Assembly: GCA_030827135.1 (NCBI GenBank)
Contig: JAURFE010000003.1
Span: 138,923 to 202,922 of the forward strand
Source of the DNA: Vicinamibacterales bacterium
GTDB taxonomy: Bacteria; Acidobacteriota; Vicinamibacteria; Vicinamibacterales; SCN-69-37
Reading direction: 5' to 3'
Length of the DNA stretch: 64,000 bases
Positions 3,491-59,994 of this stretch are shown here, piece by piece. The position numbers and the translations under genes are program-made. Position 1 is the stretch's first letter. Each line of letters starts with the position of its first letter. The notes under the pieces were generated by a model. It ran no database searches, was not told the origin of the DNA, and worked only from the letters and a program-made list of their open reading frames with translations.

Positions 3491-5058
3491 CCGACGTCAT
3501 CATTATCGGCGGCGGTCTCAACGGTCTTGTGGCCGCGAATGTGCTCGCGAAGAAGAAGTTTTCCGTGCTGGTGCTCGAACGCGAGGACCAGATCGGCGGG
3601 GCGGCAGTCACGGGAAAATCCGCCATGGGTGTGAAGTCGCCGACGCTCAGCCACGCGCTGGGGCCGATCAGTCCGGATGTCATCCGCGCACTCAGACTTG
3701 ACCGTGCCGGCATCGAGTTCATGACGCCGGATCCGGCGTTGACGACGTTGGGCACCAACAGCGAGGTGATCACGTTCCATCGGGATCACATCCTCACGGC
3801 AGCGTCGATCGAACGTGTATCGTCGGCCGATGCCGCCGCCTGGCAGTCGTTCGGCGTGACATTGCAGCGTCTGGCCAACGTGCTGAAGGAATTGAATCGA
3901 CATCAGGCACCGTCGATAGACTCGCCGGCCTCCGCGGATTTGTGGCGTCTGTTGAAAGTCGGCCGGCATGCGCGCGCACTGGGCAGTCGGGAACTGGCGC
4001 GACTGGGTCGCTACGTCCCCATCTGCGTCGCGGACCTCGTGTCTGAGTGGTTCAAGAGCGACCTCGTGCAGGCGGCAGTCGCCGCGCGCGCGATCTTCGG
4101 CCACCACATGGGCCCCTGGTCGGCGGGAACAGGGGCGCTGCTGCTCCAGCGGCTCGCCGAGGACCCGATGCCTGTGGGCGGCGGCGCGACGGTCAAGGGG
4201 GGCCCGGGGGCCTTCTCAGCCGCGCTGGCGGCGATGGCCACCGGGTCGAGCGTCAACATTCGCACAGGTGTGCGAGTCGCCCGCGTGCTGACCCGCGCGG
4301 GCGCTGCCGTCGGCGTCGCGCTGGAGTCCGGTGAAGAAATTCCCGCACATGCGGTTGTGGGCGCGATCGATCCAAAACAACTCCTGCTGTCGCTGGTGGA
4401 ACCGACGGACCTCCCCCCGACGTTCCGTCAGCGCGTCCAGCAGATTCGCGCGCGTGGCGTGACCGCGAAAATCAACCTGACGATCACCGGCGTGCCTGCG
4501 TTTACGGCGCTCCATGGCGACGACCTGCCGCTGCGCGGCCGCATGCTCATCGCCCCCTCGATCGATTATCTTGAGCGCGCGCACGACGCCACGAAATACG
4601 GCGGGATGGCGACATCGCCCTGGGTGGAACTGAGCATCCCGAGCATCAACGACGACACGCTGGCGCCGCAGGGTCACCACGCGGTCTCGATGTACGTGCA
4701 CGGCGTGCCGAACAGCCCGGACATCACGCGCGCAGATGTGCTCACACGCGCCCTCGCGGTGATCGCGCCACACGCGCCGAGACTCTCATCCCAGATTGTG
4801 GAACAGGAAGTATTCACGCCAGCCGATCTCGAATCGCGCTGGGGCTACACCGGCGGACACTTCTTCCACGGGGAAGGCACGCTGGACCAGTGGTGGGTCA
4901 GCCGGCCACTGCTCGGCTGGGCGCATCGCTACGCATCACCAGTTCAGGGCCTGTTCCTGGCGAGTGCGGGCACACATCCCGGCGGTGGACTCACCGGCCA
5001 GTCGGGCCTCAACGCCGCGCGCGTGATCTCAGACGTGCTCGGGCGTCGCCGACGCTGA
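3487..5058 (+). CDS. FAD-dependent oxidoreductase, second copy of the pair
   Basis: A 523-residue paralogue of the preceding flavoprotein, starting at the ATG of an ATGA overlap (3487-3490). The dinucleotide motif is IIGGGLNGLVAANVLAKK near residue 5. The C-terminal flavin motif is GLFLASAGTHPGGGLTGQSG near residue 490. The two proteins keep the same domain order, suggesting duplication followed by divergence and possibly a heteromeric enzyme (inference). The substrate is unknown. The downstream 251 bases to the convergent GNAT gene contain no feature I can support. Confidence 0.82.
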   Translation: MTDVIIIGGGLNGLVAANVLAKKKFSVLVLEREDQIGGAAVTGKSAMGVKSPTLSHALGPISPDVIRALRLDRAGIEFMTPDPALTTLGTNSEVITFHRDHILTAASIERVSSADAAAWQSFGVTLQRLANVLKELNRHQAPSIDSPASADLWRLLKVGRHARALGSRELARLGRYVPICVADLVSEWFKSDLVQAAVAARAIFGHHMGPWSAGTGALLLQRLAEDPMPVGGGATVKGGPGAFSAALAAMATGSSVNIRTGVRVARVLTRAGAAVGVALESGEEIPAHAVVGAIDPKQLLLSLVEPTDLPPTFRQRVQQIRARGVTAKINLTITGVPAFTALHGDDLPLRGRMLIAPSIDYLERAHDATKYGGMATSPWVELSIPSINDDTLAPQGHHAVSMYVHGVPNSPDITRADVLTRALAVIAPHAPRLSSQIVEQEVFTPADLESRWGYTGGHFFHGEGTLDQWWVSRPLLGWAHRYASPVQGLFLASAGTHPGGGLTGQSGLNAARVISDVLGRRRR

Positions 5059-5309: not shown

Positions 5310-6281
5310 TTAGAACACGTCCAGGGGCCACCACGTAGGGTGGGGGGCTGGGCTGATGAGCGGAGGGCCAGATGCGTCAGTGGGCAAATGGCGCACCATC
5401 ATGATTTCTGGTGCATCAAAGGGTGCGCTGAAGCGGACCTGCGGTGGATGCAGGCCGTCCGGGAGCCACGCGCGCAGAGTGCGGTCTGCCTGGGAAGGGT
5501 CGCGTTCGACATAGGCCTCAAGCAGGGCCCCGATGCGTGCACCTGACGGGTCGCGATCGCCACAGTCTTCCAGAACGACCCCCTCGGGTCCGCGGCTCAC
5601 GACAATAAAAGCGGCGGCGCGGTAGCCTTCTTCGGCGACATAGATTTCGACCTGGCGCAAGCCGGCGGGTCCAAGCCCGGCACGAAGGCGGCGACGCATG
5701 ATGCCGAACTCGATCAGGTCCGGTGTGCGATTGAGCGCAAACGACGCCTTCATCGCGTACGTCATCGACACCGCGGCGATCTCGGGGAAGTCCAGCGGGT
5801 CGGCGGCCCGCACCATCGTGGCGGGAGCTCCGCGACGTGTGTGAGGCACGTCGATGGTGACCATCTGCCGAGGCACAGCGGTAAAACCGAGGCGCGTGTA
5901 GTAGGCGGCGCCGATCTCCGAAAAGAGCAGCGCCACTGTGCAGCCGCGAGCCTTGCCGTCGGCAATCATCGCCTCGACCAGCCTGGGCGCGAGCCCCTGC
6001 CCGCGTCGCGACTCAGGCGTGAACACCGCGCCAATGCCAAGAACCCTGGTCGGGTGGCCCGCAATCACAGCGTCAAACAGGTAGCGTTTGGCCGAGACCA
6101 TGACCCGGTCGCCTTCCACCAGTCCAACCCGAGCCAGATTCTCCTTCCCCCAGCGGGTCTTCATCTGAGCCAGGTTCCACAGGCCGTAGGCCTTACGGCT
6201 CAGCCCATCGCCCCACAGCCCATAGGTGTCGTCCAACACCTGTTCCAGAAGCGACGAATCCGCCAATTCAATCAACTCCAT
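5310..6281 (-). CDS. GNAT family N-acetyltransferase, Eis-like length
   Basis: A 323-residue protein whose first half is a GNAT acetyl-CoA-binding fold. The motif-A signature RRGQGLAPRLVEAMI (about residues 90-105) gives the Q/R-x-x-G-x-G/A pyrophosphate loop, and YYTRLGF near residue 125 is the typical motif B end. The C-terminal ~170 residues resemble the second GNAT-like half of Eis-type acetyltransferases, but I cannot assign a substrate. I start at the ATG at 6281 (MELIELADSS). The open frame continues upstream only through simple GTGGGTGG-type sequence that is clearly non-coding spacer. Divergent from the DUF1800 gene with 69 bases between. Confidence 0.78.
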   Translation of the reverse strand: MELIELADSSLLEQVLDDTYGLWGDGLSRKAYGLWNLAQMKTRWGKENLARVGLVEGDRVMVSAKRYLFDAVIAGHPTRVLGIGAVFTPESRRGQGLAPRLVEAMIADGKARGCTVALLFSEIGAAYYTRLGFTAVPRQMVTIDVPHTRRGAPATMVRAADPLDFPEIAAVSMTYAMKASFALNRTPDLIEFGIMRRRLRAGLGPAGLRQVEIYVAEEGYRAAAFIVVSRGPEGVVLEDCGDRDPSGARIGALLEAYVERDPSQADRTLRAWLPDGLHPPQVRFSAPFDAPEIMMVRHLPTDASGPPLISPAPHPTWWPLDVF

Positions 6282-6350
6282 CCGCCCATCCACCCACCTG
6301 CCCACCTGCCCACCTTTAACTATCATTCCCCAGCGCGGGTCCAAACAGTC

Positions 6351-8087
6351 ATGAATCGCCTTCTTCCCTTCTCCGGACGCCTGGTGGCCGCTGTGGTGGC
6401 GGCAGGTCTCGGCGTTGCCGCTCCGCTCTCGGGACAGTCGGCCGCGGCGAATGCTGACACCGCCACCGTCGTCCACGTATTGAACCGGCTCGGATACGGT
6501 CCGCGGCCGGGAGATGTCGCACGAGTGAAGGCGATGGGCATCGAGGCGTACATTGAGCAGCAGCTGCACCCGGAGCGGATCGTTGACCCCGCGCTCGATC
6601 GCCGACTCGCGGCGTATCCCACGATTCACCTGACCACGGCAGAGATTGCGCGCGACTACTACGGCCCCGCCGAAGCGTTGCGGCGCGCGGAGCAGCAGGC
6701 GGCCGGCCGGCAGGGCCAGCCTCCGGCGCCGCCGGTGATGACGACGGATCCCACGATGATGGGACAGGCGGGCCAGCCCGCACGGCCGGCGCAAAACCTG
6801 TCGCCAGAGATGCGCGACGCGCGCCAGCGCGAGCAGCAGATCCTGCAGGATCTGATGCAGGCGCGGATCGTGCGCGCGGTGGCATCGGAACGCCAGCTTG
6901 AGGAGGTGCTCGTTGATTTCTGGTTCAACCACTTCAACGTGTTCTCAGGCAAGGGGCAGGTGCGCGTGTACCTCACCGGGTACGAACGCGACACCATTCG
7001 CCCGCACGTGCTTGGCAACTTCCGCGAGATGCTGGGCGCGGTCGCTGAGAGCCCGGCGATGTTGTTCTATCTGGACAACTTCCAGAACGTGGATCCCAGG
7101 GCCGCACAGCGCCAGGCGGATGAGACGCTCGCGCGTCAGCGGATGGCCGCGGCGCGGGGACGCGGGGGCCGAGGTGCGGTGCGTCCGCAGAATCAGCAAC
7201 AGATGGAGCGCCAGCAGCAGGTCCTGCAGACGGCGCGTAATCGCGGCCTGAACGAGAACTACGCGCGGGAGTTGATGGAGCTCCACACACTGGGCGTGGA
7301 TGGCGGGTACACCCAGGCGGATGTCGTGGCCGTAGCCCGCGCGTTCACAGGCTGGACGATTGACCGTCCGCGCGATGGCGGATCGTTCCTGTTCAACGCC
7401 GCGATGCACGACAACGACCCGAAGGTCGTGCTCGGCACGACGATCGCGGCGGGTGGCAAAAAAGATGGTGAGGCCGTGCTCGACCTGCTCGCCGCGCATC
7501 CCGCAACGGCGAAGTTCATTGCCGGGAAGCTTGCGCGGCGCTTCGTGTCGGATGAACCGCCGGCGGCGCTGATCGACCGTGCCGCGAAGGTGTTTCTCAG
7601 CTCGAAGGGCGACCTTCGGGAAGTGACGCGCGCGATTGTCACGTCACCAGAGTTTTTTGCCACCGAGGCTCGCCGAGCCAAGGTGAAGACGCCGCTTGAA
7701 TTCGTGGCCTCGGCCGTCCGCGCGTCGGATGCCGCAGTCAACAACGTGCAGCCCCTGGTGCAGGCGTTGCGCACGCTCGGCATGCCGCTGTATGGCGCGC
7801 AGCCGCCGACCGGCTGGGGTGACACGGCGATGGACTGGGTCAACACCGGCGCGTTGCTCAATCGCCTGAACTTCGCCATTCAGCTCGCGGGCAACCAACT
7901 CCGGGGCATCCGCCTTGATGTGCGCAGCCTGGCGCCGGACACCAGCGAAACGACGCGTACTCAGCTCGTCACGAAGCTTGTGTTTGGTGATATCTCGAGC
8001 ATCACGCGAGACACGTTGGCCAGGGCCGAGTCGCCGCAGCACCTCGTGGCGCTCACGCTGGGGTCGCCCGAGTTTCAGAAGCGCTGA
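6351..8087 (+). CDS. DUF1800 domain-containing exported protein
   Basis: A 578-residue protein with an N-terminal signal peptide (hydrophobic core at about residues 10-25, ending LSGQS). The DUF1800 body shows the family hallmarks: early HVLNRLGYGPRPGD, DFWFNHFNVF near residue 190, NENYARELMELHTLGV near 300, and VARAFTGW soon after. Two low-complexity inserts interrupt the fold: a Gln/Pro/Ala-rich one at about 105-155 and an Arg/Gly/Gln-rich one at about 260-295. DUF1800 genes are almost always paired with a DUF1501 gene, as here (10 bases downstream). The biochemical role is not established; the pair is assumed to act outside the cytoplasm. The start at 6351 is the only ATG in front of the signal peptide. 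Confidence 0.88.
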   Translation: MNRLLPFSGRLVAAVVAAGLGVAAPLSGQSAAANADTATVVHVLNRLGYGPRPGDVARVKAMGIEAYIEQQLHPERIVDPALDRRLAAYPTIHLTTAEIARDYYGPAEALRRAEQQAAGRQGQPPAPPVMTTDPTMMGQAGQPARPAQNLSPEMRDARQREQQILQDLMQARIVRAVASERQLEEVLVDFWFNHFNVFSGKGQVRVYLTGYERDTIRPHVLGNFREMLGAVAESPAMLFYLDNFQNVDPRAAQRQADETLARQRMAAARGRGGRGAVRPQNQQQMERQQQVLQTARNRGLNENYARELMELHTLGVDGGYTQADVVAVARAFTGWTIDRPRDGGSFLFNAAMHDNDPKVVLGTTIAAGGKKDGEAVLDLLAAHPATAKFIAGKLARRFVSDEPPAALIDRAAKVFLSSKGDLREVTRAIVTSPEFFATEARRAKVKTPLEFVASAVRASDAAVNNVQPLVQALRTLGMPLYGAQPPTGWGDTAMDWVNTGALLNRLNFAIQLAGNQLRGIRLDVRSLAPDTSETTRTQLVTKLVFGDISSITRDTLARAESPQHLVALTLGSPEFQKR

Positions 8088-8097
8088 GGATTTGATC

Positions 8098-9318
8098 ATG
8101 CTCACACGACGGGTGTTTCTCAAGAACGGCAGCATGGCGATGCTGAGCCTTGGATTTGCTCCGGCGTTCTTCGAACGCGCGGCGCAGGCGGCGCAGACGA
8201 AACGCAAGGTGCTGGTCACGATCTTCCAGCGTGGTGCCGTGGATGGCCTGAACATGATCGTGCCCTTCGGGGAGAAGGCGTACTACCAGGCGCGACCGTC
8301 GATCGCAGTCCCGCCGCCCGGACAGGCCAACGGCGCGCTCGACCTTGACGGGTTCTTCGGTATGCACCCTCGCATGGCGTCGCTCTATCCGTACTTCACG
8401 CGCGGGGAACTCGCGATCGTCAACGCCACGGGCTCCCACGACCCCACGCGATCTCACTTTGACGCCCAGGACTACATGGAGAGCGGCACCCCTGGGGTCA
8501 AGAGCACCGGTGACGGCTGGCTGAACCGGTATCTGCACGCGAAGGAGCACGAGGAAGCAAGTGCATTTCGCGCGGTGGCACTCACGCAGCAGCTGCCGCG
8601 GGTCCTGCAGGGCCAGGCGCCGGCGCTGGCCATCGATCAGCTCGGCAGATTCGGCGTGCGTGCAGGTGAGGCCGGCGAGATGATGCAGTCCTCATTCGAA
8701 GCCCAATATGCCGCGGCGGCCGATGCCATGCTCCGCCCCACCGGCAAGGAGGCCTTTGAGGCAGTCAAACAGCTGCGATCTGTGGACATTGCAAAGTACA
8801 CGCCGCAGAACGGAGCCGTGTATCCAAACAGCGGCTACGGCCAGGCGCTCAAACAAATCGCCCAGCTGATTCGCGCGGACATGGGCCTTGAAGTCGCGTT
8901 CGCGGAGTCCGGCAACTGGGACCATCACGCCAACGAAGGTCCGGCCATTGCGAATCGACTCGACGATTTTGCCGGCGGCATCGCCGCCTTCGCGCAGGAC
9001 CTCGGCGACAGAATGGCGGACGTGGTGGTGCTGACGATGTCGGAGTTTGGCCGCACGGTGGCGGAAAACGGCGCGCGTGGCACCGACCATGGCCACGGCA
9101 ACGCGATGCTTCTGCTCGGCGGGAATGTAAAGGGCGGAAAGATCTACGGCCGGTGGCCCGGCCTCGAACGCGAACAACGCTACGAAGGCCGGGACCTGGC
9201 GATCACGACCGACTTCCGCGACGTCTTCTCAGAGGCACTGACGGGCCACCTCGGAGCCCGGGACACGGCTCGAGTGTTTCCGGGGCACAAGCGCGGGAAG
9301 ACACTCGGGATTCTCTAG
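8098..9318 (+). CDS. DUF1501 exported protein (alkaline-phosphatase-like superfamily)
   Basis: A 406-residue protein whose N-terminus MLTRRVFLKNGSMAML is a twin-arginine (Tat) type signal, so it is probably exported folded. The body matches DUF1501: the GAVDGLNMIVPFGEKAYY stretch near residue 45, the DAQDYMESGTPG motif near 125, and the late VVVLTMSEFGRTVAENGARG and DHGHGNAM motifs at about 310-335, where the Asp/His residues are the probable metal ligands of the alkaline-phosphatase-like fold. It follows its DUF1800 partner by 10 bases and is presumably co-transcribed. The function of the pair is unknown. A perfect hairpin at 9337-9371 follows the stop. Confidence 0.88.
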   Translation: MLTRRVFLKNGSMAMLSLGFAPAFFERAAQAAQTKRKVLVTIFQRGAVDGLNMIVPFGEKAYYQARPSIAVPPPGQANGALDLDGFFGMHPRMASLYPYFTRGELAIVNATGSHDPTRSHFDAQDYMESGTPGVKSTGDGWLNRYLHAKEHEEASAFRAVALTQQLPRVLQGQAPALAIDQLGRFGVRAGEAGEMMQSSFEAQYAAAADAMLRPTGKEAFEAVKQLRSVDIAKYTPQNGAVYPNSGYGQALKQIAQLIRADMGLEVAFAESGNWDHHANEGPAIANRLDDFAGGIAAFAQDLGDRMADVVVLTMSEFGRTVAENGARGTDHGHGNAMLLLGGNVKGGKIYGRWPGLEREQRYEGRDLAITTDFRDVFSEALTGHLGARDTARVFPGHKRGKTLGIL

Positions 9319-9336
9319 CTGGGCGCATGAGCAGCT

Positions 9337-9371
9337 GGGCGGGTGGGCGGATGACATCCGCCCACCCGCCC
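9337..9371. terminator. Perfect 17-bp inverted repeat between convergent genes
   Basis: GGGCGGGTGGGCGGATG (9337-9353) and its exact reverse complement (9355-9371) are separated by one base. It sits in the 80-base gap between two convergent stops (9318 and 9399), so it could act as a bidirectional transcription terminator. There is no T-run, so classic intrinsic termination is not certain. Similar GGGTGGGC-type simple sequence also occurs upstream of the GNAT gene at about 6283-6317. Confidence 0.6.
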
Positions 9372-9398
9372 AACGACCCAATCGCCCATCCGGGCGCG

Positions 9399-10199
9399 TC
9401 AGCGCGAAGCGCTCCAGTTTGCGCCTTTGATCGATTTGCCGTCGGCGGAGACCGTACCCGTATACGTGGTGCCGCCCGCCGTGAAGGCGATCGAGGTGCC
9501 GTTGAGTTTGCCTTCAGTGATGGCCACCGCCCCCATCGTGCCCGTCACGTTCTGGAACTTCTGATTCAACGTCAGCGCCTGCCCGTTCATCGTCCACTTG
9601 CCGTTCACCTTGGCGGGAACGATCCAGAGGTGGGCAGTGCACCAGGACACACAGTCTTCGGAGACGCGACGCGTTTCGTCCGGCACCCACTCATCTTCGC
9701 CCGAGCCCATCATGAACGTGTTGGACACGATGCGCGTACCTGGGCGCATGTCGAGGATTTGCGGACGAATCCGCAGGTTGATGTCGGGCAGCAGGAACAG
9801 CGTTAGCACGTTGGCCTGCGAGAAGTCCGTCTTGAAGAGATCGGCCTGGCGGAACACGGCGCGATCGCTGACGCCGGCGGCCTTTGCGTTCTCGACCGAG
9901 AGCGCCACCATGTCCGGGTTGTACTCGATGCCGAGCGCGCGCGCGCCACGCTTCGCGGCGGTGATGACCGTGCGGCCGTCACCCGACCCGAGGTCGATGT
10001 GGTAATCCTCTTTGGTGAGCTTCGCCATGTTGAGCATCAGCTCAACGGTTTCCTGCGGCGTCGGCACCCAGACCACGTCCTTGCCGGCCTGACCCGATCG
10101 GGGTTCAAACTTCTGCTGCGCCTCCACACCCTGCACCAGGGCCGCCACGAGGACCGCCGCCAATGCTCCAAACACTATCTGTCGTCCGTACTGTCGCAT
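9399..10199 (-). CDS. Exported SAM-dependent methyltransferase-fold protein
   Basis: A 266-residue protein combining an apparent signal peptide (hydrophobic core about residues 9-24, ending GVEAQQ) with a class I methyltransferase domain. The SAM-binding motif I reads YHIDLGSGDGRTVITAAKRG at about residues 66-85, followed by an acidic motif II (LGIEYNPDM). The last ~75 residues form a separate Gly/Thr/Asn-rich beta-type segment. Family members with VWVPTPQETVELML before motif I are annotated as class I methyltransferases. SAM is not known to be present in the periplasm, so the export prediction and the fold conflict. Either the segment is a membrane anchor or the domain has another role. Confidence 0.75.
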   Translation of the reverse strand: MRQYGRQIVFGALAAVLVAALVQGVEAQQKFEPRSGQAGKDVVWVPTPQETVELMLNMAKLTKEDYHIDLGSGDGRTVITAAKRGARALGIEYNPDMVALSVENAKAAGVSDRAVFRQADLFKTDFSQANVLTLFLLPDINLRIRPQILDMRPGTRIVSNTFMMGSGEDEWVPDETRRVSEDCVSWCTAHLWIVPAKVNGKWTMNGQALTLNQKFQNVTGTMGAVAITEGKLNGTSIAFTAGGTTYTGTVSADGKSIKGANWSASR

Positions 10200-51492: not shown

Positions 51493-53880
51493 ATGAAAAG
51501 ACTGCTAAGCACCGTCACTGTTGGAATCGTTGTCTCGCTGGTCGCAGCGAGCCTTGGCGCGCAAGCGCCCTCAGGGTACCTCACCCCACCCAAAGTCATC
51601 GTCGACATCATGGACGCCGAGCCGCTGCCCGGCGTGCAGGTGTCGCCCGATCGAAAAACGATGCTGATGACCCATCGACGGAGCATGCCGACGCTTGCGG
51701 AAGTCGCGTCGCCGATGCTGCGGCTTGGCGGATCGCGCATCAGCCCGTTGACCAACGGGAACCATGTGCTGAACGGCACCATCGGCATCACGTTGAAGGA
51801 CGTGGCGACCGGTGCGGAGCGCAAACTCGCATTGCCGGAGGAAGGATCGTTCGGCGCGAGTTTTTCGCCTGACGGAAAGAAGATCGCCATCACCCATACG
51901 GCCGCCAACACCATCCGGCTACTGCTCGCGGACGTCGCGACCGGGCAGATCAGCACGGTCGTTGATCGCGGCATCAACGGACTGGGCGGCGGGTGCAGCT
52001 GGCTGGACGACTCGACCGGGTTCCTGTGCAGCATGGTTCCGGCCGGCCGGGGCCCGGCTCCGGCCGCACCGGTGGTGCCGTCGATGCCGAACACGCAGGA
52101 GAACCTCGGCACAATCGCCGCAGGCCGCACGTATCAGGACCTGCTGACCAGCGCACACGACGAACAGCTGTACGACTACTACTTCACGTCACAACCGACC
52201 TGGGTGGACCTCTCAGGCAAGGCGACCTCCTTCGGGCGCCCGGCCGTGTACGCAGGCATGCAGGTCTCGACCGATCGCGAATTTGTCATCGTCAACCGCA
52301 TCAAGCGGCCGTATTCGTACCTGCTGCCCGCGTCGAGTTTCCCGCGCGATGTCGAAGTGTGGGATCGCACAGGGAAAGTCGTGCGGACGATCGCGGATGT
52401 ACCGATGGGCGACGTCGTGCCCGTCAATGGCGTACATCAGGGCGCGCGGAGCGCGCAGTGGCATCCACTGGAGCCCGCCACGTTGCTGTGGGTGGAAGCG
52501 CTCGACAAGGGCGACATCCGGAATCGTGTCCCTCACCGCGACCGTGTGATGACCCTCGCCGCTCCGTTCACAGGCACACCCACGGAAGCCATCAGGACCG
52601 AATGGCGGTACGGCGGCGTGTCGTTCACCGAGAAGGGCGTGATCATCGTGGCCGAGTCGGATCGCGCGACGCGCAAAACGCGCTCGTGGGTGCTCGACAA
52701 GGGCTGGTCCTCAACCCCGCGCAAGGTGTGGGAACGCGGCCAGGAGGACCGGTACGGCGATCCCGGTTCGGCGATTCGGCGCCCGTCCTCGAACCTGATC
52801 ATGCAGGTGGGTGAGGCGATCTATCTGACCGGCGCCGGTGCGTCGCCCAAGGGCGACCTGCCGTTCCTGGATCGCATGAACCTGACCACGCTCGCCACCG
52901 AGCGGGTGTGGCGCAGCGACGAGCAGAGCTACGAGTCGATTGTGGCGCTGGTGGATGATGCGGGTGTCCGGGTCATCACACGACGGGAGACGGCGCAGAT
53001 GCCGCCCAACTATGTGATGCGCAATCTGACGGCCGGCACCATGACGGCGGTCACGTCATTCAAGGATCCCCATCCGCAGCTCTCGGACGTCCAGCGCCGG
53101 TTTGTCACCTACAAGCGCAACGACGGCGTGACGCTCTCCGGCACGATTTACCTGCCGCCCAGCTACAAGCCTGGCGAACGGCTCCCGATGTTTGTGTGGG
53201 CCTATCCGCAGGAGTTCACCAACGCGGATGCGGCGAGCCAGGTGGTCGGGTCCCCGAACCGCTTCACACTCGTGGGCGGCGCGTCCCACCTGCTGCTGCT
53301 GACGCAGGGGTACGCCGTGTTTGACGGTGCCACCATGCCCATCATCGGTGCGGGGGAAACCGCCAACGACACCTACGTCGAACAACTCGTTGCCAGCGCG
53401 CAGGCGGCCGTGGACTTCGCGGTGAATGAAGGCATCGCGGATCGCACCCGCATCGGCGTGGGCGGTCACAGCTACGGCGCGTTCATGACGGCCAACCTGC
53501 TCGCGCACTCGGACATCTTTGCGGCCGGCGTGGCCCGCAGCGGCGCCTACAACCGCACGCTGACGCCATTCGGGTTCCAGAACGAGACACGCACCTTCTG
53601 GGAAGCCCCTGATGTCTACGCGAAGATGTCGCCGTTTTATCACGCGCACAAGATCAAGGAGCCGCTGCTCCTGATCCACGGCGAACTCGACAACAACTCG
53701 GGCACATTCCCGATTCAGTCGGAACGCATGTACATGGCCCTCAAGGGCCACGGCGCGACGGCCCGGTACGTCACGTTGCCGTACGAGTCACACGGCTACG
53801 CCGCGAGCGAATCCAACCTGCACGTCGTGGCCGAGACGCTCAACTGGCTGGACCGCTACGTCAAGAACGCGAAGCGCTAG
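51493..53880 (+). CDS. Exported S9 family prolyl-oligopeptidase-like peptidase
   Basis: A 795-residue secreted serine peptidase. The signal peptide spans residues 1-23. Beta-propeller sequence follows to about residue 530, including PDGKKIAITHT-type WD-like blades. The C-terminal alpha/beta-hydrolase domain carries the nucleophile in GVGGHSYGAFMTANLL near 655, an Asp in LIHGELDNNSGTFP near 727, and the His in YESHGYAASES near 764. All three catalytic residues are visible. GGAGG lies 8 bases before the ATG at 51493. It is probably transcribed with or after the amidohydrolases. Confidence 0.92.
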   Translation: MKRLLSTVTVGIVVSLVAASLGAQAPSGYLTPPKVIVDIMDAEPLPGVQVSPDRKTMLMTHRRSMPTLAEVASPMLRLGGSRISPLTNGNHVLNGTIGITLKDVATGAERKLALPEEGSFGASFSPDGKKIAITHTAANTIRLLLADVATGQISTVVDRGINGLGGGCSWLDDSTGFLCSMVPAGRGPAPAAPVVPSMPNTQENLGTIAAGRTYQDLLTSAHDEQLYDYYFTSQPTWVDLSGKATSFGRPAVYAGMQVSTDREFVIVNRIKRPYSYLLPASSFPRDVEVWDRTGKVVRTIADVPMGDVVPVNGVHQGARSAQWHPLEPATLLWVEALDKGDIRNRVPHRDRVMTLAAPFTGTPTEAIRTEWRYGGVSFTEKGVIIVAESDRATRKTRSWVLDKGWSSTPRKVWERGQEDRYGDPGSAIRRPSSNLIMQVGEAIYLTGAGASPKGDLPFLDRMNLTTLATERVWRSDEQSYESIVALVDDAGVRVITRRETAQMPPNYVMRNLTAGTMTAVTSFKDPHPQLSDVQRRFVTYKRNDGVTLSGTIYLPPSYKPGERLPMFVWAYPQEFTNADAASQVVGSPNRFTLVGGASHLLLLTQGYAVFDGATMPIIGAGETANDTYVEQLVASAQAAVDFAVNEGIADRTRIGVGGHSYGAFMTANLLAHSDIFAAGVARSGAYNRTLTPFGFQNETRTFWEAPDVYAKMSPFYHAHKIKEPLLLIHGELDNNSGTFPIQSERMYMALKGHGATARYVTLPYESHGYAASESNLHVVAETLNWLDRYVKNAKR

Positions 53881-53882
53881 CG

Positions 53883-54370
53883 CTACGCGAAGAGCCACGT
53901 GAGCGCGTCAGGCAGGCGTCGCGCCCAGGCGTCTTCGCTGTGATCGCCGTTCGGGTCTTCGACGCCTCCGAGGTGGCCGGCATCAAGCTGGTCACGCAGG
54001 AGGCGTCGAAGGCGCCGGACGTCCGCGAGGGTGTCTCGGCCTTCCTGGTGCCCCACGTCCAGCCAGACGCGTGTGGTCGGGACCAGCGGGTGGTGGTGCA
54101 GACGCCGGAGGATGACGCGGTTGTCCCACCACACCGATGGCGACATGACGAGCAGCCGCCCGAACCGACTGGGGTACTGCTGGGCCACCGCCAGCGTCGC
54201 GAGGCCTCCCAGCGACGACCCTCCCAGTGACAGCGCCCCCGGCCCTGTCCCGACACCGAATTCATTCGCCATGTACGGCACCAGTTCCTCCATGAGAAAC
54301 CGGCCGTGCCTCCACAGGTCGCCGGCACCGTAGTGGGTCCCCTCGGTCGGAGTCAGTTCGGTGATCCGGC
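53883..54370 (-). pseudogene. C-terminal part of an enterochelin-esterase-like alpha/beta hydrolase (5' truncated)
   Basis: About 160 recognisable residues of an esterase of the Fes/YbbA type. RITELTPTEG, GRFLMEELVPYMANEFGV, the nucleophile motif LSLGGSSLGGLATLAVAQQY, and a C-terminal GDHSEDAWARRLPDALTWLF with the catalytic His are present. The N-terminal half expected of the family (signal peptide and first strands) is missing. Upstream of about 54370 the frame runs into the antisense of another truncated gene. An open frame extends to an ATG at 54470, but the added residues have no family character. It is a gene remnant unless the junction is an assembly artefact. Confidence 0.7.
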
Positions 54371-54794
54371 CCTCGAGATTCGCATCTGTGACATCCCGAT
54401 GCGCGTTGAGGAGACCATCGCCCTGGCCGCGTTGATTCAGGCGACCATGGTGAAGCTCTACCGCCTGCATGCAAAGAACCAGAGCTGGCGCGTCTACAGT
54501 CGCGCGCTGTTGATGGAAAACAAATGGCGTGCCGCCCGCTACGGACTCGACGGCATGCTCATCGACTTCGGCAAGGAGCGCGAAGTCCCCGAGCGGGAAC
54601 TCATCCTCGAATATCTCGACTGGGTCGACGATGTGCTGGATGAGTTGGACAGTCGTGAAGAGGTCAACACCATCCGCTGGATTCTCGAGAACGGCACCGG
54701 CGCAGACCGGCAGCTCAAGGTCTACAACGAGTCAGGCCACGACTTCAAAGCGGTCATGGACTACATGATCGCGGAGACCAGGCACGGACTCTGA
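54366..54794 (+). pseudogene. C-terminal part of a carboxylate-amine ligase (GCS2/YbdK family), 5' truncated
   Basis: About 140 residues matching the end of glutamate-cysteine-ligase type 2 proteins: LEIRICDIPMRVEETIALAA, then AKNQSWRVYSRALLMENKWR, GLDGMLIDFGKEREVPERE and a terminal DYMIAETRHGL. Functional members are about 370-400 residues long, so roughly 250 N-terminal residues with the ATP and glutamate sites are missing. Similarity stops abruptly at about 54366-54372, exactly where the divergent esterase remnant also starts. A GTG at 54306 could open the frame, but a functional product is unlikely. Confidence 0.75.
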
Positions 54795-54814
54795 AGGGTC
54801 CAGGGTTCTCGCAG

Positions 54815-54837
54815 GGCGCCCTGCACTGCAGGGCGCC
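54815..54837. repeat. Dispersed hairpin repeat, palindromic copy
   Basis: GGCGCCCTGCA and its complement form a 23-base palindrome with one unpaired central base, between the ligase remnant stop (54794) and the small exported protein stop (54844). It lies between convergent genes and may terminate both. Confidence 0.7.
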
Positions 54838-54843
54838 AGAGCC

Positions 54844-55209
54844 TTACTTGATCGGCCTCATGGTGAGCGTCACTTCGGTCTGCACGCCTGGCTTCACCTC
54901 TTCGACCGCCACGGTGATTTCATAGCCCCGCGCCCGGCATGTGACCCGATAGGTGCCCGGGCGCACGCCCTCGAAATCGAATCGACCCCGGGAATCAGCA
55001 ACGGCTCCAAACTCCGTCAGGCCGGAACGCGGGTCCGCCGGCTGAAACAACACCGTGGCGTCAGGAATCGACGCCCCGTACTCGTCAAACACCCGTCCGC
55101 GCACCTGTCCCATCGCCACGTCGACGGTCCTGCCAGGGATCCGTCCGCCTGCGCAATGCATTCCCGCCAGTGCGGACACCAGTAGCAGGGCGAGAATCAC
55201 AGCGCGCAT
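54844..55209 (-). CDS. Small exported carboxypeptidase-regulatory-like domain protein
   Basis: A 121-residue protein made of a signal peptide (residues 1-20) and a single carboxypeptidase-regulatory-like (transthyretin-type) beta sandwich: GQVRGRVFDEYGASIPDATV near 34, DSRGRFDFEGVRPGTYRVTC near 72 and a final VTLTMRPIK. Such domains are common as modules of TonB receptors; a stand-alone one may be a surface adaptor. The Cys at about 19 is not in a strict lipobox. It lies 14 bases beyond the stop of the methyltransferase gene in the same direction. Confidence 0.75.
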   Translation of the reverse strand: MRAVILALLLVSALAGMHCAGGRIPGRTVDVAMGQVRGRVFDEYGASIPDATVLFQPADPRSGLTEFGAVADSRGRFDFEGVRPGTYRVTCRARGYEITVAVEEVKPGVQTEVTLTMRPIK

Positions 55210-55223
55210 CAGGGCCTTGTCAC

Positions 55224-55751
55224 CTACTTCACGACCGTGAGCACCACGCGGATGTACCAGGCTGGCGCGATCCAGGCGAGGTGTTCTTCATAGAAGTGAG
55301 GCCAGCGATTGGCCAACCACGCCCAATGGCGATTCTTGTAGCGGCCGTAGAATCGCAAGTGGCGTTCGGTCAGCGTGAAGCGCGCACCCGTGTAGAAGTC
55401 CCACTGGTTCTGCCCGGTGAAATAGTCAAATGAAAAATAGCCCAGGTGATGACGATGGGTCGGATCAGTCCAGGAGTTGGCACAAGAATAGTGAGGCGTG
55501 ACGATCTCGACACGGCCACCCTGTGCGAGCACCCGGTGAATCTCTTCCAGGGTCTTCGTCACGTCGGCGACGTGTTCGATCACGTCCTTACATCGCACGA
55601 AATCAAACTCACCATCCCTGAACGGCCACGGCGTGACATCGAGATCGTGCACCACGTCAGGTCCCGTTGCTACGACACGGTCGACCGTCACCGCACCCGG
55701 GACCGACCGATCTCGCCCGGCGCCAATTTCGAGGACTCTCTGTTCAGGCAT
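55224..55751 (-). CDS. Class I SAM-dependent methyltransferase
   Basis: A 175-residue methyltransferase. Motif I reads QRVLEIGAGRDRS (residues 4-16), the post-II region FDFVRCKDVIEHVADVTKTL near 50 is typical of methyltransf_11 proteins, and GGRVEIVTPHYSCANSW near 82 follows. The C-terminal half has a His/Tyr/Trp-rich segment. I start at 55751, 16 bases after the glycosyltransferase stop; an ATG at 55790 overlapping that gene is possible. The link to a glycosyltransferase suggests modification of a surface glycan or lipid (inference). Confidence 0.82.
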   Translation of the reverse strand: MPEQRVLEIGAGRDRSVPGAVTVDRVVATGPDVVHDLDVTPWPFRDGEFDFVRCKDVIEHVADVTKTLEEIHRVLAQGGRVEIVTPHYSCANSWTDPTHRHHLGYFSFDYFTGQNQWDFYTGARFTLTERHLRFYGRYKNRHWAWLANRWPHFYEEHLAWIAPAWYIRVVLTVVK

Positions 55752-55767
55752 GTTTACGAGTTCATTA

Positions 55768-56865
55768 TCACTGCTTGGCGGCTCGTGCATAGGCGGCAAA
55801 ACACCGATCAGCGGTGGCACGCCACGTGAAACGGTCCAGGACACGCCGTCGAGCGGCGGCGCCCATGGTGGCCGCAAGCACGGGATCCTGGCACAACTGG
55901 CGGAGACGCTGACTCAACTGCCCTGGGTGATCCGGCGACACGACAAACCCCGTCTCGCCGTCGGCCACAACCTCGGGCAGAGAGGCCACGTCGGTCACCA
56001 CCGTGGCGGTCCCGCACGCCATCGCCTCCGCTGCGGCCAGGCCGAAAAGCTCAGGGTGTTCGGTGACCGCACCGCGATAGTCGGTCGCCACCGAGGGCAA
56101 CACGGATACAGTGGCGCGGCGATAGCGCTCCACAAGTTCTGAGTCGGACACGTCATATTCAAAGACGACGTTCTTGCCCGCGGCACGGTCGTGCAAATGT
56201 GCCAGATACGCCCGATCGTACGGACGACCAACAACATGCAGGCGCTGGCCGGGCCCGACGGCATCGATAAGACGGTCGATGCCCTTGTGCGCAACCAGCC
56301 GGCCGACAAAAACCACCATCGACGGGTCCTTCGTGCCACCCGGTGAGAAGTGTTCGGTGTCCACGCCGCCGTAAATCACGTCGAGCGTGCCCGGCCGACG
56401 CCATTCGGGCCGTTGGAGCCATAGCTGACGCGAGTACTCGCTGATCAGGAGATACGCCGTGGCCTGACGCATCAGTGGGAATCGTCGCGAGGGCATACGC
56501 GCGTACCCGCCGCCGAGGTCCGTCACGAACACGGGGCGTCCCATCGCCGAGGCCGCAAGCACCGCGACATTGGTGGACATCACATCGATCTGGTGACAAT
56601 GCACCACGTCGGCCGCACGGATCGCCTTGAAAAATGACCACCTCACCGGATCCGGCAGCAACGAGTGGCTCACGCCGCCCCAGTGCTTCAGACACACCAT
56701 CCGCACATCGTCGCGGCGGGTGATGAAGGGGCGCGGACCGAATGTCAGCAGGGTGACTTCCGCCGACCGGGCCATCGCCTTCGCCAGTTCCCACGTATAG
56801 CGCTCGGCGCCGCCGATGATCGACGACACATCAAAATACGTGGGGGCGATATGGAGAACTCGCAC
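55768..56865 (-). CDS. GT4 family glycosyltransferase
   Basis: A 365-residue GT-B glycosyltransferase. The N-terminal VRVLHIAPTYFDVSSIIGGA with the acceptor-side GGAERYTWELA is followed by VVHCHQIDVMS. The C-terminal donor-binding half includes VVFVGRLVAHKGIDRLIDA near 205 and PELFGLAAAEAMACGTATVV near 275, with the E-x7-E signature of family GT4. I start at the GTG at 56865, 4 bases after the hydrolase stop, because the longer frame to 56913 overlaps that gene and lacks family character. The sugar is unknown. Confidence 0.88.
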   Translation of the reverse strand: MRVLHIAPTYFDVSSIIGGAERYTWELAKAMARSAEVTLLTFGPRPFITRRDDVRMVCLKHWGGVSHSLLPDPVRWSFFKAIRAADVVHCHQIDVMSTNVAVLAASAMGRPVFVTDLGGGYARMPSRRFPLMRQATAYLLISEYSRQLWLQRPEWRRPGTLDVIYGGVDTEHFSPGGTKDPSMVVFVGRLVAHKGIDRLIDAVGPGQRLHVVGRPYDRAYLAHLHDRAAGKNVVFEYDVSDSELVERYRRATVSVLPSVATDYRGAVTEHPELFGLAAAEAMACGTATVVTDVASLPEVVADGETGFVVSPDHPGQLSQRLRQLCQDPVLAATMGAAARRRVLDRFTWRATADRCFAAYARAAKQ

Positions 56866-56869
56866 GACG

Positions 56870-57748
56870 CTAGGTGCAACCCGGGGTGGGAAGCAGGGCG
56901 CGAACCGCATCACGAAGCACCACCCAGGCTTCGAGGTCAGGCGCGATCAGGTCGAAGTGCCCGGCACCTTCAACGAGGCGCACGGTCGCGCGTGACCCAA
57001 CCACGCGTGTAAGCGCCTCCGCCTGTGTGCGCGGGACGACGGCATCGGCGGTGCCGACGACGAGCTGCAGCGGGACCGTCGGCACGGTGATCACCGGTGA
57101 CGCCTGCGCGTATCGCTCCCCCATCGCCTTCGCGTCGCCTCCCAGGAGCGGCACCACGGCGGAGCCACATCCGCTCGGGGACGCGTATGCCGTCAAGTCG
57201 GTGATGCCGGCGAGGGCCACGACTCCGTGGGGGATGAGCGGATCAGGCGAAGCAATTGGCGAGTCCCTGGGGAGCGAGCCCCGGGCCGCGCTCCAGAGCG
57301 CGAGGTGCCCTCCCGCCGAGTGGCCGACGGCCACGATGCGGGACAGGTCGAGCGCCTGGCTCTGTGCGAGTGTGCGAAGGTGATCGATTGCCGCGCCAAC
57401 GTCCTGGAAGGTTCCAGGCCAGCCTCCGCCAGGACTGCCGACGCGGCGGTACTCGATGGCCCACACCGCCCATCCATCGTTCACAAGGGCCGTCGCGAGC
57501 GGGGCAAGGTGTGAGAGGTCGTACTCCGCGCGCCAGCAGCCCCCATGAATCAGCACCACGACCGGGTGCGGGCCCGGCCCCGCTGGCAGGCGAAGCTCAC
57601 CAAACTGTTCCGGCGCCGATCCGTACGTCAGGCGCGCGTCAGCCGGGCGACTCGGCATGGCGGCCACTTCGCTGAAGGTGCGGGAGCGTGGGGGCTGGGT
57701 CGTGGACATGGCGGCAACCAGGACGGTGAACATCACCAGAATCGGCAC
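56870..57748 (-). CDS. Alpha/beta hydrolase, BD-FAE/esterase-lipase type
   Basis: A 292-residue hydrolase with a possible N-terminal signal (residues 1-15). The oxyanion motif is VVVLIHGGCWRAEYD near residue 63, the nucleophile is in IVAVGHSAGGHLALWSAARG near 138, and the C-terminal VEGAGHFDLIAPD near 265 supplies the His. This is the esterase/lipase pattern; the substrate is unknown. It is the first gene of a leftward run with the glycosyltransferase, the methyltransferase and perhaps the small exported protein. Confidence 0.85.
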   Translation of the reverse strand: MPILVMFTVLVAAMSTTQPPRSRTFSEVAAMPSRPADARLTYGSAPEQFGELRLPAGPGPHPVVVLIHGGCWRAEYDLSHLAPLATALVNDGWAVWAIEYRRVGSPGGGWPGTFQDVGAAIDHLRTLAQSQALDLSRIVAVGHSAGGHLALWSAARGSLPRDSPIASPDPLIPHGVVALAGITDLTAYASPSGCGSAVVPLLGGDAKAMGERYAQASPVITVPTVPLQLVVGTADAVVPRTQAEALTRVVGSRATVRLVEGAGHFDLIAPDLEAWVVLRDAVRALLPTPGCT

Positions 57749-57790: not shown

Positions 57791-58783
57791 ATGTTCGACG
57801 ACTTTCAGCCTGGCGCAAACAACGCCATCCGCACCTGCCTCAACGTCCAGCCCCACGAGCGGGTCACCGTCATCACCGACCGGGAGATTCGGCCAATTGC
57901 TGACGCACTGATTGCCGAAATCGACCGCGTGGGCGCCGCGCATCGGCTCTGGGTCCTCGAGGACGAGGCCCCGCGCCCGCTCACCGACCTGCCGGCAGCC
58001 ATCGCGGCCGACATGGAATTGAGCCACGTCAGCATCTTCGCCGCACACGTCCAGCAGAACGAGCTGGGTTCCCGCATGCAGATGACCGACATCGTGAATC
58101 GCCGGCGCATGCGGCACGCGCACATGGTGAACATCACGCCTCAGATCATGGTCGAGGGCATGCGGGCGGATTATCACCTGGTGGATGAGATCAGCACGCG
58201 CGTGATCAACAAGGTTCGGAAGGCCAGACAGGTTCGCGCGACGACGCCGGCGGGCAGTGACTTTGCGGCGGACCTGAATCCCAACTACCGATGGGTCAAG
58301 ACGAGTGGCCTGATCAGCCCTGAGAAGTGGGGCAACCTGCCGGGCGGCGAGGTCTTCACCTCACCCGGTGAAGTCAACGGCACGTTTGTCATCGATGGCG
58401 TGGTGGGCGACTGGCTCTGCGACCGCTACGGCAACCTTAGGGACTCGCCGCTGACCGTCACGATCAGGAAGAACCGGCTCGTCGACGCCACCTCGCCGAA
58501 TCAGCAGCTGCGCGACGACTTCTGGGCGTACACGCACACTGATGAGAACAGCGATCGCGTCGGCGAATTCGCCATCGGCACGAACATCGAACTGAAACAG
58601 GTCATCGGCCACATCCTGCAGGACGAAAAATTCCCAGGCATTCACATCGCGTTCGGCAACCCCTACGGCGCACACACGGGGGCTGACTGGTACTCGTCCA
58701 CGCACATCGATGTCGTCGGCACCCAGTTCGACATCTGGGTGGATGACGAACAGATCATGTCGCACGGCACGTTCCTGATCTGA
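57791..58783 (+). CDS. M29 family aminopeptidase
   Basis: A 330-residue metallo-aminopeptidase of the thermophilic AmpS/AmpT (M29) family. The C-terminal catalytic half contains VGEFAIGTNIELKQVIGHIL near 260 (metal Glu), FPGIHIAFGNPYGAHTGADW near 285 (catalytic His) and SSTHIDVVGTQFDIWVDDEQ near 306 (His and Asp ligands). It is somewhat shorter than the usual ~400 residues because the N-terminal domain is reduced. The start at 57791 is the ATG of MFDDFQPG; the upstream frame is antisense to the hydrolase. The ATP-grasp-like gene begins 9 bases after the stop. Confidence 0.88.
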   Translation: MFDDFQPGANNAIRTCLNVQPHERVTVITDREIRPIADALIAEIDRVGAAHRLWVLEDEAPRPLTDLPAAIAADMELSHVSIFAAHVQQNELGSRMQMTDIVNRRRMRHAHMVNITPQIMVEGMRADYHLVDEISTRVINKVRKARQVRATTPAGSDFAADLNPNYRWVKTSGLISPEKWGNLPGGEVFTSPGEVNGTFVIDGVVGDWLCDRYGNLRDSPLTVTIRKNRLVDATSPNQQLRDDFWAYTHTDENSDRVGEFAIGTNIELKQVIGHILQDEKFPGIHIAFGNPYGAHTGADWYSSTHIDVVGTQFDIWVDDEQIMSHGTFLI

Positions 58784-58792
58784 CAGTCCCCC

Positions 58793-59994
58793 ATGATTCC
58801 CGCACTGCGCGCGCGGTGGAATGAGCAGTACACGGAAGCCGGATACCGCGCGTCCCTCGACGCGCTGACGGAGCGGGTCGGCTGCAAGGTGGAGTTTCGC
58901 ATCTGCGAGACCCCGTGTTTTTCCCCTTGTCGCTGATGCAGGACCTTGTGGAAGCGTCGCGGGCAATGGTGGGGCAACTACTTGGAAACGCGGAGTACCG
59001 CGCGGCTGCGGACGCCATGGTTCCCGAACGTTTCCGCCTCGCCGGTGGCGAAGACCTCCCCACCTGCGTGCAGGTGGACTTCGGGCTTGTGCGGCGGCCC
59101 GACGGTCGCGTCGAAGGGCGGCTCGTCGAACTGCAGGCCTTCCCCTCGTTGTACGGCTTCCAGATGGCGCTGGCGGACAAGATGGCGGGTGTCTTTTTCG
59201 GGTCAGGCAATGCCGAAAATGACACACGACGTCTTTTTCTGGGCGGCCTCGACCTGGACTCCTACGTGGCGCTCCTCCGCGATGTCCTTGTCGGTCCGCA
59301 CGATCCTGCGCACGTCGTGTTGATGGAGATTCAGCCGCACAAGCAGAAGACGCGGCCGGACTTTCTGGTCACCGAGGCCACGTGGGGCATCCGCGCACTG
59401 GACACGACCGAGATCATCAAGGACGGGCGGCGGCTGTTCTACCGGCGCGACGGCGTGCGCACGCCGATCCATCGCATCTACAACCGCGTGATTCCCGATG
59501 AGCTTGAGCGATCCGGTGCACCGATGCCGTTCGACTATCGCGATGAACTCGACGTGGAGTGGATCGGCGGGCCCGACTGGTTCTTCCGGATCAGCAAGTT
59601 CTCGATCCCATGGCTGCGCCATCCGTGGGTGCCGACGACGATGTTCCTGTCGGACGTGGCCGAGGTGCCATCCGACCGCGACAATTGGCTGATCAAACCG
59701 CTGTTCTCATTTGCGGGCGGCGGGATCATCTTCTCGCCGACGGACGCTGACATCGCGGCCATTCCGGCAGACCAGCGTCATCTCTATGTGCTGCAGGAAC
59801 GCGTGGCGTTCACGCCGGTGATTGACACGCCGGCGGGTCCGACTCAGGCGGAACTGCGCATCATGCTGGTGCGCCAGGGTGCCGGCTATCGTGCGGTGCT
59901 CCCGCTTGTCCGCATGGGCCGCGGCAAGATGATGGGCGTCGACCACAACAAGGGCCTCGACTTCGTCGGGGCTGCAGCGGCGATGATCATCTAG
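58793..59994 (+). pseudogene. ATP-grasp-like protein interrupted by a one-base frameshift
   Basis: Two frames together encode one protein of about 400 residues. Frame one from ATG 58793 gives MIPALRARWNEQYTEAG to RICETP and stops at 58936. Frame two, open from 58915 to 59994, continues with VFFPLSLMQDLVEASRAM. Adding one base to the C-run at 58911-58914 would join them as ETPVFFPLS. The C-terminal half holds WLIKPLFSFAGGGIIFSP and LYVLQERVAFTPVI, like the nucleotide-binding and lysine motifs of ATP-grasp or glutathionylspermidine-synthase-like ligases. It is probably functional if the shift is a sequencing error. It follows the M29 gene by 9 bases. Confidence 0.75.

Follow-up and report, generated by a model that had tools for sequence, protein, structure and literature searches.

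The junction at positions 54368-54375 of the window, the 64,000-nucleotide stretch of DNA analysed here (G000:C33:138923-202922), is best explained by a single recent deletion of about 2.65 kb, which probably arose via very short direct repeats and pseudogenised the two genes that it joined. This reading is given a probability of roughly 0.85. The window belongs to a draft genome of 3.24 Mb, assembled into 80 contigs and rated 100% complete. The event looks ordinary in kind: it is of a known type and a case of gene decay, with no new kind of element involved. Related species lose the same operon by other deletions, which is the basis for reading it as ordinary gene decay. This repeated loss across the genus is more interesting than the single junction.

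To the left of the junction lies the 3′ stump of an esterase (PF00756, 53883-54368, minus strand) that corresponds to residues ~104-268 of the 269-aa protein from G005, a genome of the same genus with an intact locus (contig L056). The PF00756 match of the open reading frame 53883-54470 (minus strand) spans profile positions 87-250 of 251 (E 3e-16), and the match of the G005 protein starts at position 25. The N-terminal part of the domain (profile positions 1-86) is thus absent from the stump, which lacks ~103 N-terminal residues and retains the GxSxG nucleophile region as GGSSLGG. To the right lies the 3′ stump of a carboxylate-amine ligase (GCS2/PRK13515-like, 54369-54794, plus strand) with residues ~229-369 of 369. 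The open reading frame 54306-54794 (plus strand) matches positions 232-372 of 378 of NCBIfam PRK13515 (E 1e-50), which places its C-terminal homology to the GCS2/YbdK family in the last third of the profile. The GhExE motif, described in an excerpt of PMC2588565 as the N-terminal active-site (Mg/ATP-binding) signature of GCS2/YbdK ligases, is absent from the stump, as it starts only at residue ~229; in the intact G005 ligase the motif reads GIEEEY and lies within the first 15 residues. Beyond the junction, each open reading frame continues only as an antisense reading of its neighbor, and the start positions assigned mechanically are therefore not those of real genes. In a base-by-base comparison with contig L056, DNA identity stays with the esterase as far as 54368 and lies on the ligase diagonal from ~54370-54373 onwards. 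Both stumps are real, and the junction is real in the assembly. The profile matches and the G005 alignment bear out the initial annotation, which had described a minus-strand esterase and a plus-strand ligase that lack their 5′ parts and meet at a single junction. Its placement of that junction at 54366-54372 overlaps the present one; the exact position moves a few bases to the right.

The intact locus of G005 starts with two amidohydrolases (plus strand), followed by the first esterase (3965-4774, minus strand). This gene diverges from a second esterase (plus strand, ending at 5438), which stands between it and the gene of an ATP-grasp protein (5476-6408, plus strand). The carboxylate-amine ligase (6413-7522, plus strand; scoring 530 bits, above the PRK13515 cut-off of 371), an M29-type peptidase (7566-8558, plus strand) and a 419-aa protein encoded by the last operon gene (8558-9817, plus strand) complete the operon. 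The minus-strand gene next to the operon end encodes what we take to be an ABC-F protein. The divergent core recurs in G013, a genome of another genus. Full-length forms of both truncated genes thus occur in G005 and G013 in the divergent order that had been predicted and was to be sought in relatives, which makes a chance arrangement unrealistic. The cut points of the window correspond to G005 positions 4453 and 7099, which are 2,646 bp apart. The missing DNA comprises the genes of the second esterase and the ATP-grasp ligase in full, along with the 5′ parts of the first esterase and the carboxylate-amine ligase. A single deletion in a divergent arrangement, as proposed initially, remains the best explanation, but the ligase is not the direct divergent neighbor of the esterase. 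Given the G005 gene order, the loss also extended beyond the 5′ halves and the promoter region to two whole genes. The ATP-grasp gene, the ligase N-terminus and the first-esterase N-terminus, the three pieces searched for, were found on no other contig of the genome. Relocation of these pieces was rejected on this basis.

The short form of the ligase is not a normal state of the family. The ligase is matched in 20 of 60 related genomes and is full-length in 18 of these; the two exceptions are the genome of the window and G004, its sister in a tree of the ABC-F gene (support 100/99). A broader sample consisted of the best 80 named loci among at least 468 confirmed relatives of the ligase (L118-L197), which were picked by C-terminal ligase motifs so that completeness was no selection criterion. 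One of them, L118, is identical in length and coordinates to the G013 contig already used. Relatives with names are mostly Acidobacteriota, including Vicinamibacterales. The ligase is full-length in 75 of the 80 loci, clipped by a contig end in five and truncated internally in none. A naturally short gene family was rejected, since none of the 75 unclipped loci has a short form and only G000 and G004 do so among the 60 genomes; by the same counts, the initial reading as a deletion withstands the comparison with homologues. The ligase stump is truncated relative to its orthologues, as is characteristic of a pseudogene.

The genes around the stumps differ from the G005 arrangement as well. An S9-type peptidase gene (51493-53880, plus strand) separates amidohydrolase 2 from the esterase stump and is not present at this place in G005. 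Between the ligase stump and the M29 gene, a minus-strand block (54844-57748) encodes a carboxypeptidase-regulatory-like protein, a methyltransferase, a glycosyltransferase and an alpha/beta hydrolase; this block, too, is missing from the corresponding position in G005. In G004, that position has just the first and the fourth gene, and relatives of the methyltransferase and the glycosyltransferase are found on another contig in G002. The M29-type peptidase gene (57791-58783, plus strand), formerly the next gene of the operon, is intact over all 330 G005 residues. The last operon gene (58793-59994, plus strand), a predicted ATP-grasp ligase of the glutathionylspermidine synthetase/YgiC fold, is shifted in frame by 1 nt near 58912-58925 compared with G005, a change that G004 has as well. 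The 359 codons that remain are nonetheless open and seem to be under constraint. This remainder is not clearly more diverged in the window than in G005 (identity to G003 0.737 versus 0.760; to G027 0.660 versus 0.631), and the gene may start downstream of the frameshift.

The proposed deletion mechanism builds on short sequence identity at the cut points. The word CGTCG, at 54371-54375 in the window, is present at both corresponding places in G005 (4453 and 7099). An identical run thus stands at both ends in G005, which serves as a proxy for the ancestral genome; its DNA differs from the window by 20-30%, so the ancestral deletion ends are only approximate. A run of at least 5 bp occurred in 0.69% (0.0069) of 200,000 random draws of cut points from the same regions. 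One recent chromosomal deletion of ~2.65 kb would have formed between such very short direct repeats, probably by RecA-independent slippage or annealing. It would have joined codon ~104 of the minus-strand esterase to codon ~229 of the plus-strand carboxylate-amine ligase and taken out the two genes between the cut points, those of the second esterase and the ATP-grasp ligase. Both stumps would be left as pseudogenes without N-terminal parts or promoters. We infer that this was one event, that the 5-bp repeat was its cause and that the stumps are non-functional.

An assembly artefact would produce the same picture if the contig wrongly joined two places and the living organism had an intact operon. 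In favor of this are the draft state of the genome, with its 80 contigs, and the undecayed stumps, which would look just the same in a chimeric contig. The initial annotation had named an assembly collapse as an indistinguishable alternative. For a chimeric join this holds, but collapse at a repeat was rejected: the longest direct word common to both G005 breakpoint regions is 8 bp, which is too short for a graph collapse, and no direct repeat of at least 14 bp exists within 53700-55000 of the window. Moreover, the pieces of the 2.65 kb that were searched for turned up on none of the other contigs, in a genome with a completeness rating of 100%, and the same genes are missing from the sister species G004, which was assembled separately. 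An artefact is therefore improbable. The deletion most likely postdates the split from G004, since the stumps show no decay yet. They contain no stop codons in 139 and 161 codons and no excess of amino-acid change relative to G005, and the window is at least as close to outgroups in amino-acid identity as G005 is (0.761 versus 0.746 for the ligase against G013). As 3.4% of substitutions make a stop, the absence of stops bounds neutral drift to ~0.10 substitutions per site.

Alternatively, the gap could have been made by nested deletions, the first in an ancestor common with G004 and the last creating the present junction. This would fit with the loss of the same region and more in G004, with the block between the ligase and M29 remnants in both genomes and with their common frameshift in the last operon gene. 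It is unlikely, however, as ~6-9 stops would be expected in the stumps after 0.2-0.3 neutral substitutions per site (synonymous distances between window and G004 are 0.43-0.64) and none is present, which argues that constraint on both the ligase and the esterase part lasted until long after the two lineages had separated. A deletion common to both genomes is disfavored by the contrast between the undecayed stumps of the window and the eroded locus of G004. The open frames and the constrained-looking divergence from G005 could also point to short proteins that are functional and kept by selection. Such a role is highly improbable, because the ligase stump lacks the N-terminal GhExE signature and no relative has a short form; the constraint is attributed to the time before the deletion. 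The single recent deletion remains the preferred reading.

The intact operon, found at L056:4479-9817 in G005, is widespread and conserved in Acidobacteriota. Among the best 80 of at least 468 ligase relatives, the order second esterase, ATP-grasp, ligase, M29 peptidase and last protein occurs in at least 43 loci, an ATP-grasp match in at least 67 and the divergent first esterase upstream in at least 16; these are lower bounds, as many loci are clipped by contig ends. The operon ATP-grasp protein is weakly similar to RimK and D-Ala-D-Ala ligases. The last operon protein has no Pfam or NCBIfam match, and a sequence search of the PDB gave nothing useful (best E 0.74). Its structural model (28 sequences, mean pLDDT 90.2, pTM 0.90) matches E. 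coli YgiC in the PDB (Z 25.0, 344 residues, rmsd 3.6), along with glutathione and glutathionylspermidine synthetases. The intact operon is thus predicted to encode three amide-forming ligases, namely the GCS2 enzyme, the D-Ala-D-Ala-ligase-like ATP-grasp protein and the ATP-grasp protein of the glutathionylspermidine synthetase fold, whose product could be a small peptide-like molecule. No description of this gene set came up in literature searches at the level of result listings.

Within the genus, the operon is intact in only one of seven genomes (G005). In G004, the ligase is reduced to a 60-bp remnant (92% identity) with an in-frame TAG, no esterase is detectable, the M29 gene is broken (~100 residues, with stops around) and the last operon gene is in pieces. 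What remains in G003, next to amidohydrolase 2, is the C-terminal 104 residues of M29 together with the last gene, which is intact. In G006 (L221:10233-10934), an in-frame fusion links the N-terminus of amidohydrolase 1 to the C-terminal 93 residues encoded by the YgiC-fold last gene. The G006 deletion measures 9,096 bp by G005 coordinates and lies between two copies of the 9-bp GGCGGCGGC; the chance of a run of at least 9 bp at its ends is 0.0002. No ligase or ATP-grasp remnant was found in G001 and G002. The tree that places the genus members is built on the ABC-F gene only. This gene is clipped by a contig end in G001, whose fragment was dropped for the second tree; the first tree that included it was less resolved. 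In G002, the gene (L222:7759-9379) is read in two frames, suggesting a frameshift or sequence error, and its row is a partial reading. The group of G005, G006, G003 and G002 has a support of 82/82, which is below the starred level. The differing breakpoints in the window, G003 and G006, and the grouping of the intact G005 with G003 and G006, suggest that the operon was lost independently at least twice and probably three times.

Tentatively, and at slightly less than even odds, the genus may be repeatedly and independently deleting this one operon, which in its intact state seems to specify a peptide-like small-molecule pathway that includes the three predicted amide-forming ligases as well as the M29 peptidase and the esterases. 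If true, the parallel loss in most species with different breakpoints would mean that the product has become dispensable or costly across the genus. The genomes display stages in the loss of one operon, from the intact form over an internal deletion, a small remnant and a distal remnant to an in-frame fusion. The junction itself is a clean case of a deletion that took genes out of the genome of a wild bacterium and can be dated in relative terms. It also draws attention to a conserved operon whose product appears to be an amide-linked small molecule.

Gene neighborhoods of amidoligases with ATP-grasp and GCS2 enzymes were reportedly described by Iyer et al. in 2009. The intact operon resembles such neighborhoods in that its GCS2 ligase is accompanied by ATP-grasp ligases, a peptidase and esterases. 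Compared to YbdK/GCS2 ligases of the PRK13515 subfamily, the window stump matches the last third, and the catalytic N-terminal part is gone. RecA-independent deletion between short direct repeats is a well-described process, covered in an excerpt of PMC3637634 for indels in Streptococcus agalactiae ST260-261; the present case is similar in having an identical run at both ends, which is 5 bp here (with G005 as proxy) and 9 bp in G006. Satellite-plasmid deletions occur at homologies of 7-15 bp according to an excerpt of PMC6925257. In contrast to these, the run at the present junction is shorter (5 bp) and taken from a diverged relative, and the mechanism is inferred.
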